A stretch of DNA of 64,000 bases from Knoellia koreensis (GTDB taxonomy: Bacteria > Actinomycetota > Actinomycetes > Actinomycetales > Dermatophilaceae), in NCBI RefSeq assembly GCF_013041615.1, contig NZ_JABEPQ010000001.1, forward strand, positions 62,001 through 126,000, given 5' to 3'. A program made the position numbers and the translations under genes. The notes beneath the pieces are model-generated. The model saw nothing but the letters and a program-made list of their open reading frames with translations, was not told the origin of the DNA and did not search any database. Each line of letters begins with the position of its first letter. Position 1 is the first letter of the stretch. This document shows positions 3,354-41,285 of the stretch, in pieces.

Positions 3354-4289
3354 GTGCCTGACACCGACGACATCCTGCTGAGCGCTCGCGGCCTGACCAA
3401 GACCTTCGGGGAGTTCACCGCCGTCGACGGCATCGACTTCGCCGTCCGCAGGGGCGAGTGCTTCGGGTTCCTCGGTCCCAACGGCGCCGGCAAGTCCTCG
3501 ACGATGCGCATGGTCGGGTGCGTGTCGCCGGTGACCGGGGGAGAGCTCCGGCTGTTCGGGCTCGACCCCGCCACCGACGGGCCGGCCATCCGTGCCCGCC
3601 TCGGCAACTGCCCCCAGCGCGACACGCTCGACGAGGAGCTCAGCGTCGAGGAGAACCTCTGGATCTACGGCCGCTACTTCGGCCTGTCGCGCAAGGAGGT
3701 CAAGGAGCGCGCCGCCGAGCTGCTCGACTTCGCCCAGCTCACCGAGCGCGCCAAGGACAAGGTCGAGCCGCTGTCCGGAGGCATGAAGCGACGCCTCACC
3801 ATCGCGCGCTCGCTGATCAACGCGCCCGAGATCCTGCTCCTCGACGAGCCCACCACGGGCCTCGACCCGCAGGCGCGACATGTGTTGTGGGACAGGCTGT
3901 TTCGGCTCAAGCGCTCCGGCGTGACGCTCGTGCTGACGACCCACTACATGGACGAGGCCGAGCAGCTCTGCGACCGATTGGTCGTCATGGACCACGGCCG
4001 CATCGTCGCCGAGGGCTCGCCGCGTCAGCTCATCGACGACTACTCGACCCGGGAGGTGCTCGAGCTGCGCTTCGACGCCGAGGACCACGGCGCCTACGCC
4101 GACAAGGTCGCAGGCATCGGTGAGCGCGTCGAGGTGCTGCCCGACCGCCTCCTGCTCTACGCCGACAACGGCGACGAGGCCTCCGCCCAGGTGCACGCGC
4201 GTGGGGTCGAGCCGCTGTCGTCGCTGGTGCGGCGCTCGACGCTCGAGGACGTCTTCCTCCACCTCACCGGCCGGACCCTGGTGGACTGA
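3354..4289 (+). CDS. ABC-2 type exporter ATP-binding protein (DrrA/NodI-like)
   Basis: This 311-residue ATPase has Walker A GPNGAGKS (residues 41-48), a Q-loop at NCPQRD, the signature LSGGMKRR, Walker B ILLLDEPTTGLD and the switch histidine in LTTHYMDEAE. The C-terminal extension after residue 230 is the DrrA/NodI type found in ABC-2 exporters of drugs, lipids or polysaccharides. It drives transport with the two permeases that follow, 3 bases and then a 4-base overlap downstream. The substrate cannot be read from sequence. Confidence 0.93.
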   Translation: MPDTDDILLSARGLTKTFGEFTAVDGIDFAVRRGECFGFLGPNGAGKSSTMRMVGCVSPVTGGELRLFGLDPATDGPAIRARLGNCPQRDTLDEELSVEENLWIYGRYFGLSRKEVKERAAELLDFAQLTERAKDKVEPLSGGMKRRLTIARSLINAPEILLLDEPTTGLDPQARHVLWDRLFRLKRSGVTLVLTTHYMDEAEQLCDRLVVMDHGRIVAEGSPRQLIDDYSTREVLELRFDAEDHGAYADKVAGIGERVEVLPDRLLLYADNGDEASAQVHARGVEPLSSLVRRSTLEDVFLHLTGRTLVD

Positions 4290-4292
4290 ACG

Positions 4293-5138
4293 GTGACCCA
4301 GGCGACCACCCACGAACCGCCGCCCACGGGCGCGCGGGCGGCACACGGCATACGTCAGCCCATGTCGGCGCTCGAACGCGTGCTGGCCGCGTTCGGCTAC
4401 CACCTCGCGGTCTACCGGCGCACCTGGCGCGGATCGGTCGTCACCCGCGTTCTGTCGCCGGTGCTGTTCCTGTTGTCGATGGGCATCGGGCTCGGTGCGC
4501 TCGTCGACGACCGTGCGGGCGGGATCGACGGGGTCCCCTACCTTCACTTCGTGGTCCCCGCGATCGTCGTGACGCAGACGTTGTGGGTGGCGTGGGGCGA
4601 GTCGAGCTACCAGGTCCTGGGCTACATCAAGTGGAACATGAACTACCACGCCCAGCTCGCCACGCCGCTCGGTGTGCGGGACGTGCTCGCCGGGCACTGG
4701 CTCGCGGTGGCGCTGCACCTGGTGATGTCGACGACCGTCTTCATGGCGATCGCGGCGCTGTTCGGTGGGTTCGACTCGTGGTGGGCAGTGTTGTGCCTCC
4801 CGATCGCCGTGCTGACCGGATTGGCTTTCTCCACACCGCTTTTCGCGTTCACGGCCACGCAGGAGGGGGACAACGGGTTCAACATCGTCTACCGCTGGAT
4901 CATCACGCCGCTCATGCTCTTCTCCGGCACGTTCTTCCCGATCGACCAGCTGCCCGGATGGATGCAGCCGGTTGCCTGGGTGACGCCGTTGTGGCACGGC
5001 GTCTCCGCGGCGCGGGCCGTGTCGGTGGGTGACGTGTCGTGGTTGCCCTTCGTGGGGCACCTGTTGGTCCTGGTCGGGTATGCCGCGGGCGGGGCCTGGT
5101 TGGCCCGGCGCGCCTTCGCGAGGAGGTTGCTGCCGTGA
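4293..5138 (+). CDS. ABC-2 type transporter permease
   Basis: A 281-residue integral membrane protein with about six hydrophobic segments. The RVLSPVLFLLSMGIGLGALV helix, the YLHFVVPAIVV stretch and the late FSGTFFPIDQLPGWMQ loop are hallmarks of ABC2_membrane permeases. It should form the membrane channel with the neighbouring ATPase and the next permease, its paralogue. It starts at GTG 4293, three bases after the ATPase stop, and its stop overlaps the next start. Confidence 0.9.
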   Translation: MTQATTHEPPPTGARAAHGIRQPMSALERVLAAFGYHLAVYRRTWRGSVVTRVLSPVLFLLSMGIGLGALVDDRAGGIDGVPYLHFVVPAIVVTQTLWVAWGESSYQVLGYIKWNMNYHAQLATPLGVRDVLAGHWLAVALHLVMSTTVFMAIAALFGGFDSWWAVLCLPIAVLTGLAFSTPLFAFTATQEGDNGFNIVYRWIITPLMLFSGTFFPIDQLPGWMQPVAWVTPLWHGVSAARAVSVGDVSWLPFVGHLLVLVGYAAGGAWLARRAFARRLLP

Positions 5139-5968
5139 GCGCACCGACGATTCCTCGGACGCCGCTGGTCTCGCGGGTGGCCCGGGCGATGCCGATGCCG
5201 GCGGGCGCCGGGCTCGCGCGGATGCTGGTCGAGCGCAACGTCCGGTCGTTCCGGCACGGGTGGATCGCGCTGGTCACCGGGTTCGCCGAGCCGGTGTTCT
5301 ACCTCTTCTCCCTCGGCATCGGCATCGGTGCGCTCGTGAAGACGGTGACAACCGACTCGGGGATGGTCGTGACCTACCCGCAGTTCGTCGCCCCCGCGCT
5401 GCTCGCCGCCTCGGCGATGAACGGCGCCGTCATGGACTCCACGTTCAACCTTTTCTTCAAGCTCAAGTACGCCAAGCTCTACGACGCCGTGCTCGCCACC
5501 CCGATGGGGCCGCGCGACATCGCCGTGGGGGAGGTGGCGTGGTCGCTGATCCGCGGCGGCCTCTACTCGGCGGCCTTCCTCGTCGTGGCGGTGCTGGCCG
5601 GGGCCGTGCGCTCGTGGTGGGCGCTGCTGGCGCTACCCGCCGGGGTGTTGATCGGGTTCGCATTCGCGGCGGTCGGGATGTTCGCGACGACGTTCATGCG
5701 CTCGTGGGTCGACTTCGACTACATCACCTTGGCGATCCAGCCGATGTTCCTCTTCTCGGCGACCTTCTTCCCGCTGGCCACGTATCCGGAGGCGTTGCAG
5801 TGGTTCGTGCGGGCGACGCCGCTCTACCACGGTGTGGCGCTCGAGCGGGCGCTGATGCTCGGCGACGTGGGGTGGGGCGTGCTGGGGCACGTGGCCTACC
5901 TGCTCGTGCTCGGCCTGTTCGGCGTGGTCGGTGCCGCCCGCCGCCTCGAGAAGCTGCTGCTCTCGTAG
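5135..5968 (+). CDS. ABC-2 type transporter permease (second subunit)
   Basis: A 277-residue paralogue of the preceding permease, sharing the FYLFSLGIGIGALV, YPQFVAPALL and FLFSATFFPLATYPEALQ landmarks. Two different permeases with one ATPase suggest a heterodimeric channel. Start GTG 5135 lies 9 bases after AGGAGG and overlaps the upstream stop (GTGA). A hairpin built from two copies of the iterated octamer follows 5 bases after its stop. Confidence 0.9.
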   Translation: MSAPTIPRTPLVSRVARAMPMPAGAGLARMLVERNVRSFRHGWIALVTGFAEPVFYLFSLGIGIGALVKTVTTDSGMVVTYPQFVAPALLAASAMNGAVMDSTFNLFFKLKYAKLYDAVLATPMGPRDIAVGEVAWSLIRGGLYSAAFLVVAVLAGAVRSWWALLALPAGVLIGFAFAAVGMFATTFMRSWVDFDYITLAIQPMFLFSATFFPLATYPEALQWFVRATPLYHGVALERALMLGDVGWGVLGHVAYLLVLGLFGVVGAARRLEKLLLS

Positions 5969-5972
5969 GCGA

Positions 5973-6003
5973 GGTATGCCGCGAGGTGACCACGCGGCAT
6001 ACC
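5973..6003. terminator. Perfect hairpin made of an inverted pair of the CGGCATAC repeat
   Basis: GGTATGCCGCG (5973-5983) and CGCGGCATACC (5993-6003) form an 11-bp perfect stem with a 9-base loop, placed right after the exporter operon. The position suggests a terminator. Both arms are copies of the dispersed octamer. Confidence 0.65.
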
Positions 6004-6043: not shown

Positions 6044-6059
6044 TCGAACACGTGTTCGG
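6044..6059. promoter_or_regulatory. LexA (SOS) box upstream of recA
   Basis: TCGAACACGTGTTCGG is a near-perfect match to the actinobacterial SOS box TCGAAC-N4-GTTCGA, about 165 bases before recA. LexA should repress recA here until DNA damage activates RecA-stimulated cleavage. Confidence 0.88.
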
Positions 6060-6224: not shown

Positions 6225-7304
6225 GTGGCGAAGATGGCTGCACCGACCAACCCCACAGGGGCACCCCTGGACAAGAAGGCGCAGGCGGTCGACACCGTCA
6301 TGGGCCAGATCGAGAAGAACTTCGGCAAGGGCGCGGTGATGCGCCTGGGCGACGACGTGCGTCCGCCGATCGAGGTCATCCCTACCGGGTCGATCTCGCT
6401 GGACGTCGCCCTCGGCATCGGCGGTCTGCCGCGCGGCCGGGTCGTCGAGGTCTACGGGCCGGAGTCCTCCGGTAAGACCACGGTGGCGCTGCACGCGGTC
6501 GCCAACGCCCAGCGCAACGGTGGCATCGCGGCGTTCATCGACGCCGAGCACGCGCTCGACCCCGAGTACGCCAAGAAGCTCGGTGTCGACACCGACGCGC
6601 TACTCGTGAGCCAGCCCGACACCGGTGAGCAGGCGCTCGAGATCGCCGACATGCTGATCCGCTCCGGCGCCCTCGACATCATCGTCATCGACTCGGTCGC
6701 CGCGCTCGTGCCCCGCGCCGAGATCGAGGGCGAGATGGGTGACAGCCACGTCGGTCTCCAGGCCCGCCTCATGTCGCAGGCGCTGCGCAAGATCACCGGT
6801 GCGCTCAACACCACCGGCACCACAGCCATCTTCATCAACCAGCTCCGCGAGAAGATCGGCGTGATGTTCGGCTCGCCCGAGACGACGACCGGTGGCAAGG
6901 CGCTCAAGTTCTACGCCTCGGTGCGCCTCGACGTGCGACGCATCGAAACGCTCAAGGACGGCAGCGACCCGGTCGGCAACCGCACCCGCGTCAAGGTCGT
7001 CAAGAACAAGGTGTCCCCGCCGTTCAAGCAGGCCGAGTTCGACATCCTCTACGGCCAGGGCATCTCGCGCGAGGGTGGCCTGATCGACATGGGCGTCGAG
7101 CACGGCTTCGTCCGCAAGTCCGGCGCCTGGTACACCTACGACGGCGACCAGCTCGGTCAGGGCAAGGAGAACGCGCGCACCTTCCTCAAGGACAACCCCG
7201 ACCTCGCCAACGAGATCGAGAAGAAGATCAAGGAGAAGCTCGGCATCGGCCCGCAGGTCGACAAGCCGGCCGAGTCGGTGCCCGAGGTCCCGGTCGAGTT
7301 CTGA
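6225..7304 (+). CDS. recA: Recombinase RecA
   Basis: A full-length 359-residue RecA. It binds single-stranded DNA with ATP, drives strand exchange and triggers LexA self-cleavage. Walker [10 protein letters not shown] is at residues 78-86, the catalytic-glutamate strand and Walker B ([12 protein letters not shown]) follow near 150, then L2 with [12 protein letters not shown] and the acidic C-terminal tail. No intein interrupts it. GTG 6225 follows GAAGGAAG; an in-frame ATG three codons on is an alternative. A LexA box lies upstream and recX starts 5 bases after the stop, so the two are co-transcribed. Unusually for this window, it contains no CGGCATAC octamer. Confidence 0.98.
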
Positions 7305-41242: not shown

Positions 41243-41285
41243 TGCGCGGCAAACGTCGGGCTACTAACCCGAGGTATGCCGCGCA
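41243..41285. terminator. Compound hairpin after lepA containing the octamer
   Basis: An outer 9-bp stem (TGCGCGGCA at 41243-41251 with TGCCGCGCA at 41277-41285) encloses an inner TCGGG/CCCGA stem (41256-41260 and 41268-41272). The right flank contains GTATGCCG. Confidence 0.6.

Follow-up and report, generated by a model that had tools for sequence, protein, structure and literature searches.

Facing copies of an uptake-sequence-like octamer as probable gene-end hairpins in Knoellia koreensis and its relatives

The octamer GTATGCCG appears to be an uptake-sequence-like word of the lineage to which Knoellia koreensis belongs, and copies of it that face each other just past stop codons appear to serve as hairpins at the 3' ends of genes. 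We put the probability of this reading at about 0.7. It is built on computed properties: the abundance of the octamer, its restriction to a clade, its override of codon bias, the placement of its inverted pairs at gene ends, the covariation of their stems and their recurrence after homologous genes. In the mechanism that we propose, GTATGCCG would probably build up in both strands through preferential uptake and recombination of DNA that carries it. Where two copies chanced to face each other past a stop codon, the transcript would fold into a hairpin with the octamers as its stem, and selection would keep and lengthen that stem, with the pair acting as a transcription end or as a structure that protects the 3' end. 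The pair at 5973-6003 of the window (the whole stretch of DNA that was analysed, 64 kb at 70.9% GC, from a genome of 4.28 Mb) would be such a structure, standing between ABC exporter genes and a recA gene that has its own SOS-like site (Table 1).

Table 1. Features at the two gene ends discussed in the text, in window coordinates.
Feature	Position	Strand	Basis or remark
ABC transporter ATPase	3354..4289	+	PF00005
ABC-2 type permease	4362..5138	+	PF01061
ABC-2 type permease that closes the exporter cluster, before the hairpin	5189..5968	+	PF01061, called gene
Inverted octamer pair GGTATGCCGCG / AGGTGACCA / CGCGGCATACC	5973..6003	+	Predicted RNA hairpin, fold -21.9 kcal/mol
SOS/LexA-box-like site TCGAACACGTGTTCG before recA	6044..6058	+	Sole match of the searched pattern in the window
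recA, next gene downstream of the hairpin, same strand	6225..7304	+	PF00154
Imperfect hairpin after lepA, an exact octamer (41274-41281) facing a copy with one mismatch	41243..41285	+

The sequence-only reading had described two 11-bp arms facing each other across 9 nt directly behind ABC exporter genes, and each part of that description proved exact: the arms, the loop and the coordinates agree to the base, and the hairpin starts 5 nt past the TAG stop (5966-5968) of the last gene in the ATPase/permease/permease cluster. The exact pair with an N9 spacer occurs 13 times genome-wide and 0 times in the reversed control. Stems of 11 bp are not in themselves rare in the window, where 24 overlapping matches fall in 10 places (loops of 3-20), while three single-letter shuffles of the window gave 2, 0 and 3 such matches. 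The hairpin had also been called terminator-like, and for the site itself that claim was not supported, since it is without a U-tract and a close pair follows the same gene in 0 of 10 congeners. The 100 nt after the orthologous permease contain, in 10 of 10 congeners, neither a close octamer pair nor a perfect stem of at least 7 bp (loop 3-24); what follows the gene in G001 is two octamers that face each other at a distance of 73 nt, and in G005 a lone octamer. With no counterpart in the 10 congeners, the hairpin is probably of recent origin and we infer its own function from that of its class. Since both the U-tract and close pairs in the congeners are missing, termination at 5973-6003 is likewise put conditionally: transcription may end there. 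The site at 6044-6058 is called SOS-like by its likeness to the SOS/LexA box consensus. By eye, SOS-like boxes also stand 3' of the orthologous permease in several relatives, including G003 and G004.

The octamer is abundant on both strands. There are 3986 copies genome-wide (1983 + 2003), against 114 (54 + 60) of the reversed control. The window holds 72, 36 per strand, 54 of them inside called genes and 18 intergenic. An unbiased sample of 484 kb, made up of the window, L105 and L175-L194 (22 samples), contains 502 octamers, evenly spaced at a density of 1.04 per kb; 401 are in called genes and 101 outside (0.91 vs. 2.24 per kb), where the genes were called by a simple codon-model script and not by a standard gene finder. 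Strand bias is absent, with 248 of the 502 on the + strand over the 22 samples. Inside genes, the octamer is selected at the DNA level and overrides codon bias. Tyrosine is written TAT in 196 of 211 G-TAy-GCC-G contexts, compared to 132 of 2559 elsewhere, and ATA accounts for 40 of 90 isoleucine codons in C-GGC-ATx-C, compared to 19 of 4697 elsewhere. Among congener homologues (175 gene pairs), TAT is conserved at 38 of the 62 sites within octamers and at 5 of the 21 other TAT sites (Fisher p=0.005, in a comparison where one own site may count against several congeners). The longest octamer-free stretch of the 484-kb sample is a single case of 6.8 kb (L181:2260-9056). In it lie a phage capsid gene (PF05065) and two genes of lower GC3 that match no Pfam family, and it is probably a prophage remnant.

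Close pairs of octamers are strongly dependent on arrangement. At spacings of 4-30 nt, the genome contains 108 inverted pairs (GTATGCCG...CGGCATAC), 46 everted pairs and 0 direct pairs; independent placement would lead one to expect about 25, 25 and 50, respectively, or more if intergenic density is allowed for. The 10 congeners, pooled, have 404 inverted and 21 direct pairs. In two octamer-rich genera, the direct pairs equal or outnumber the inverted ones (G013 with 18 of each, and G014 with 12 inverted and 28 direct), so the recruitment of pairs is not universal among octamer users.

The check that the sequence-only reading had proposed, whether inverted pairs sit at gene 3' ends beyond chance, came out in favour in two samples. 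The neighbourhoods studied came from among the inverted pairs listed of the 108, with one exact-N9 pair and the window added. Of these 52 pairs, tandem gaps contain 27, convergent gaps 13 and divergent gaps 8; the other 4 lie within genes. After exclusion of the 7 pairs in or overlapping a called gene, 34 of the remaining 45 in the own genome are no more than 50 nt away from a stop codon; placing pairs at random within the sampled gaps gave 14.5 +/- 3.2, with a maximum of 26 in 2000 randomisations. For named records of relatives, some of which are the congeners G007, G008 and G010, the figure is 39 of 45 against a null of 14.1 +/- 3.1 (maximum 25 of 2000). That second sample began as 49 pairs in 40 loci, of which 45 were intergenic with both flanking genes called; the 4 left out were 2 at the edges of loci and 2 inside genes, the latter both in records that do not belong to the family. 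Pairs in tandem gaps of the own genome lie near the stop (mean relative position 0.24, n=24, p=7e-5), and divergent gaps hold 8 pairs where 16.4 +/- 3.3 are expected. Single intergenic octamers of the same loci have the same lean in weaker form, with 25 of 53 at 50 nt or less from a stop codon, so pairs are not alone in lying close to gene ends.

Covariation of the stem arms extends past the octamer, and it is clear at gene ends alone. In 47 inverted pairs of the own genome, the two halves of the spacer pair at a level of 0.83, as against 0.63 when halves are swapped between pairs (z 8.4); 37 everted pairs have a weaker inner covariation (0.45 vs. 0.33, z 3.2). Outer flank positions 1-4 pair in excess at the 75 pairs, own and relatives' together, that lie within 60 nt of a stop (z 6.1-6.7), compared to z of -0.7 to 2.5 at 24 other pairs. 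Pairs also recur after homologous genes. For seven own sites, a homologue of the gene in another named species is likewise followed by an octamer pair; 45 own gene-side entries were set against 49 from relatives, and homologues were taken on identity (>50%) and length (>60%) alone. One of the seven rests on a 57-residue protein of 59% identity. Loops and flanks at the recurrent sites differ between species, and for homologues of one own gene, two species have the outer stems CGAGAGGGG...CCCCTCTCG and CTGAGGGG...CCCCTCAG. Gene-end placement, stem covariation and recurrence after homologues together support the conclusion that inverted pairs have been taken over as hairpins for the 3' ends of genes, a use also known from Neisseria and Haemophilus.

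At these pairs, RNA polymerase would stop or the RNA end would be protected. The gene-end pairs form GC-rich hairpins near a stop codon, and the mean predicted stem energy of the pairs is -24.1 kcal/mol. A U-tract, sought as TTTT in the next 14 nt, follows 0 of 34 gene-end pairs, so they are not canonical intrinsic terminators; T makes up 0.21 of the sequence after them vs. 0.155 of intergenic sequence, with a mild excess at positions 7-9. In the unbiased sample, a perfect stem of at least 8 bp is found at 33 of 166 gene ends and in 5 of 56 divergent gaps. Both octamers are present in 1 of those 33 gene-end hairpins, so octamer pairs are a small subset of them. A second recurrent gene-end stem, CGTCTGCGT, occurs at 3 of the 33 (L185, L188), and shared gene-end stems are therefore not confined to the octamer.

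Beyond the immediate pairs, spacing depends on relative orientation. Octamers up to 800 bp apart make 84 pairs of the same and 207 of opposite orientation, against 145.7 +/- 8.5 with shuffled orientations (minimum 118 of 1000). The same-orientation deficit is slight at 0.8-2 kb (266 vs. 315 opposite), and the two classes are equal at 2-8 kb (1167 same, 1170 opposite). Gaps between copies on one strand have coefficients of variation of 0.62 and 0.69, as against 0.98 +/- 0.06 for random placement. The codon data follow the same pattern: an octamer in the same orientation lies within 800 bp of 12 of the 15 potential sites that are written TAC, compared to 77 of the 196 TAT octamer sites (p=0.003), and opposite-orientation neighbours have no effect on the choice between TAC and TAT (p=1). 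In pooled comEC-region samples, there are 10 same-orientation vs. 36 opposite-orientation pairs within 800 bp in the 10 congeners, and 20 vs. 50 in 12 other user genera. Deletion between direct repeats was considered as the cause and judged unlikely because 12 other common octamers have no same-orientation avoidance (direct fraction within 800 bp of 0.47 or more). It is perhaps an even call that the Intrasporangiaceae have an uptake-sequence system of their own in which the motif is read directionally, one copy serving about 0.8 kb of its own strand. Same-orientation copies would then exclude each other, and opposite ones would be independent and able to fuse into gene-end hairpins.

The distribution of the octamer follows taxonomy. 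All 11 genomes of the own genus are octamer-rich, the 10 congeners having 625-2551 copies. Among 25 other genomes of the family (25 genera), 12 have 939-4724 copies, 3 have 196-293 and 10 have 11-95, and 22 of 22 genomes from other families of the order have 2-167. Named records with the exact pair come from Pedococcus (assigned to Intrasporangiaceae, Micrococcales), Phycicoccus, Knoellia and MAGs labelled Micrococcales or Actinomycetes. One Mesorhizobium-labelled record (L027, a MAG) and one Streptomyces record (L060) also have it; we treated both as chance, as each pair falls within a called gene and the 8-kb locus around it contains no further octamer. Going by counts in 20-kb samples (14-15 kb for two genomes), the octamer has genus-level variants that look like dialects: GTATGACG occurs 12 times vs. 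13 for GTATGCCG in G013 (L118), GAATGCCG occurs 12 times vs. 8 in G022 (L127), and GTATGCCGCTGAGC... is in many pairs among the matches listed for G025 and G031. In G005, the over-represented GGACTGACC was entertained as a second word of this kind and dropped, being only a local array with 10-13 nt spacing; an array of GGTCAGTCC with that spacing lies at L110:18291-18425 of this genome.

As for competence genes, ComEC (PF03772) and a ComEA-like HHH_3 protein were found in L105, and TadE in the genome. ComEC is present in 57 of 58 genomes and so is TadE, in octamer users and non-users alike. Both were discarded as uninformative correlates of octamer use, and being near universal, neither accounts for the distribution. 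In G004, a genome with 2537 octamers, the comEC match is split into two adjacent pieces (G004:C1:1517076-1517881), so the gene may be broken in that congener.

The closest known systems are the USS of Pasteurellaceae and the DUS of Neisseriaceae. As described in the available text of PMC1852404, PMC3630211, PMC1939737 and PMC2397512, these occur at about one motif per kb without strand bias, in genes and with intergenic enrichment, and have clade-specific dialects, even spacing and inverted pairs at gene ends. The octamer resembles them, so far as those texts go, in its roughly one copy per kb on both strands, its presence in genes with a higher density between them, its clade-specific dialects, its even spacing and its gene-end inverted pairs. 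The likeness to Haemophilus and Neisseria, already drawn from the sequence alone, holds for abundance, strand balance, the use of inverted pairs and variation by genus. The octamer differs in having a high-GC Actinomycetota host and a different motif, and its role in uptake is putative. The same-orientation copies of the octamer repel each other to about 800 bp, whereas the rarity given for USS and DUS in the text available is within 10 nt; the portions of the USS/DUS literature at hand yielded no report of same-orientation avoidance beyond that distance. Judged by the available text of PMC1852404 (Kingsford 2007), the octamer pairs are like USS/DUS-pair terminators in their tail-to-tail and tail-to-head sites with few intragenic, their favoured plus-minus order and the rarity of same-orientation neighbours, and unlike them in being without a T-tail. 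The same text has the motif in 17-29% of the high-confidence terminators of Pasteurellaceae and in about 55% of those of Neisseria; our both-copy share is 1 of 33, with hairpins defined differently there. Abundance, strand balance, dialects, a single gap at probably foreign DNA and gene-end pairs are the traces expected of an uptake sequence. We accordingly file the octamer as something that looks to work like one, short of a proven member; it would act in DNA uptake.

A 2025 paper, in the part available, names Neisseriaceae and Pasteurellaceae as the sole families with uptake motifs, and self-recognition of DNA in transformation is stated to be known in just two Proteobacterial families (PMC12616744). 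For mycobacteria, the corresponding part of PMC10526031 (2023) has no uptake sequences reported. In the portions of the literature that we could draw on, we found no actinobacterial uptake motif, and our searches returned no paper on natural transformation in Intrasporangiaceae or on an uptake sequence in Micrococcales. If the reading is true, this would be the first uptake-sequence system in a single-membrane, high-GC phylum. As a third independent case, it would imply three or more separate origins of the strategy and of its secondary use for ending transcripts. Natural competence would also be predicted for Intrasporangiaceae, where the motif could be used as bait for the receptor, and the orientation-specific spacing would offer a testable handle on directional uptake.

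Several other explanations can be set against these data. The pair at 5973-6003 might be a functionless chance meeting of two octamers, as about 25 inverted pairs are predicted genome-wide by independent placement and no close pair follows the same gene in the 10 congeners; set against the 108 inverted and 0 direct pairs observed, its position 5 nt past a stop, a stem of 11 bp instead of 8 and the neighbouring recA with its own SOS-like site, we regard this as unlikely. A very improbable account sees in each pair a copy of a mobile REP-type palindrome, and in the single octamers its decayed halves. It would explain why identical 31-nt palindromes occur in several species and why the spacers are almost the same in many of the 33 inverted pairs of G025, but just 216 of the 3986 octamers are within inverted pairs, and own-pair spacers vary in length and sequence, with covariation. 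Unlike in REP or BIME elements, the palindrome is not the main repeat unit: unpaired octamers dominate, and the 401 of 502 sampled copies in called genes occupy preferred codon frames. Unlikely as well, and a little more so than chance pairing at the one site, is that the octamer is a chi-like recombination site, a replication or segregation signal or a nucleoid-protein site, and not an uptake sequence. The density of 1.04 per kb and the even spacing would also fit that. Sites such as chi and KOPS, however, favour one strand along each replichore, and the octamer does not (248 of 502 on the + strand, 36 and 36 in the window); the variants by genus and the gap at the phage capsid gene better fit uptake.

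What the gene-end pairs do leaves more room for another answer. It is quite possible, if the less favoured choice, that they are stabilisers that block exonucleases at the 3' end, with termination taking place elsewhere, for example through Rho. The lack of a U-tract at all 34 gene-end pairs is what one would expect of stabilisers, as are their strong stems. The available text of PMC8355165, however, has nearly 90% of terminator structures in M. tuberculosis either without a U trail or with mixed U/A, and Streptomyces similar, and the 13 of 52 pairs between convergent genes would equally suit a two-way terminator. The gene-end pairs resemble those actinobacterial hairpins, so far as described there, in having a GC-rich stem just past the stop and no U run, and differ in that the stem sequence is common to many genes because the stem is the octamer.

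A second hairpin that the sequence-only reading had linked to the octamer follows lepA. It is a long imperfect stem of 90 nt with a predicted energy of -57.6 kcal/mol, and the claim that the octamer flanks it was half right: one exact copy is in the stem, in its 3' arm, but the copy opposite is mismatched. The facing arm reads CGGCAAAC, one letter away from the octamer, so this is not an exact octamer pair. Conservation of the hairpin was looked for in relatives and not found; a perfect stem of at least 7 bp follows lepA in 9 of the 30 genomes read, and G000 has only an interrupted stem and one octamer. G007 (L157) and G006 (L160) have large post-lepA hairpins of other sequence (TTTGGGTGCCCAGACGGTCGG... 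and similar).
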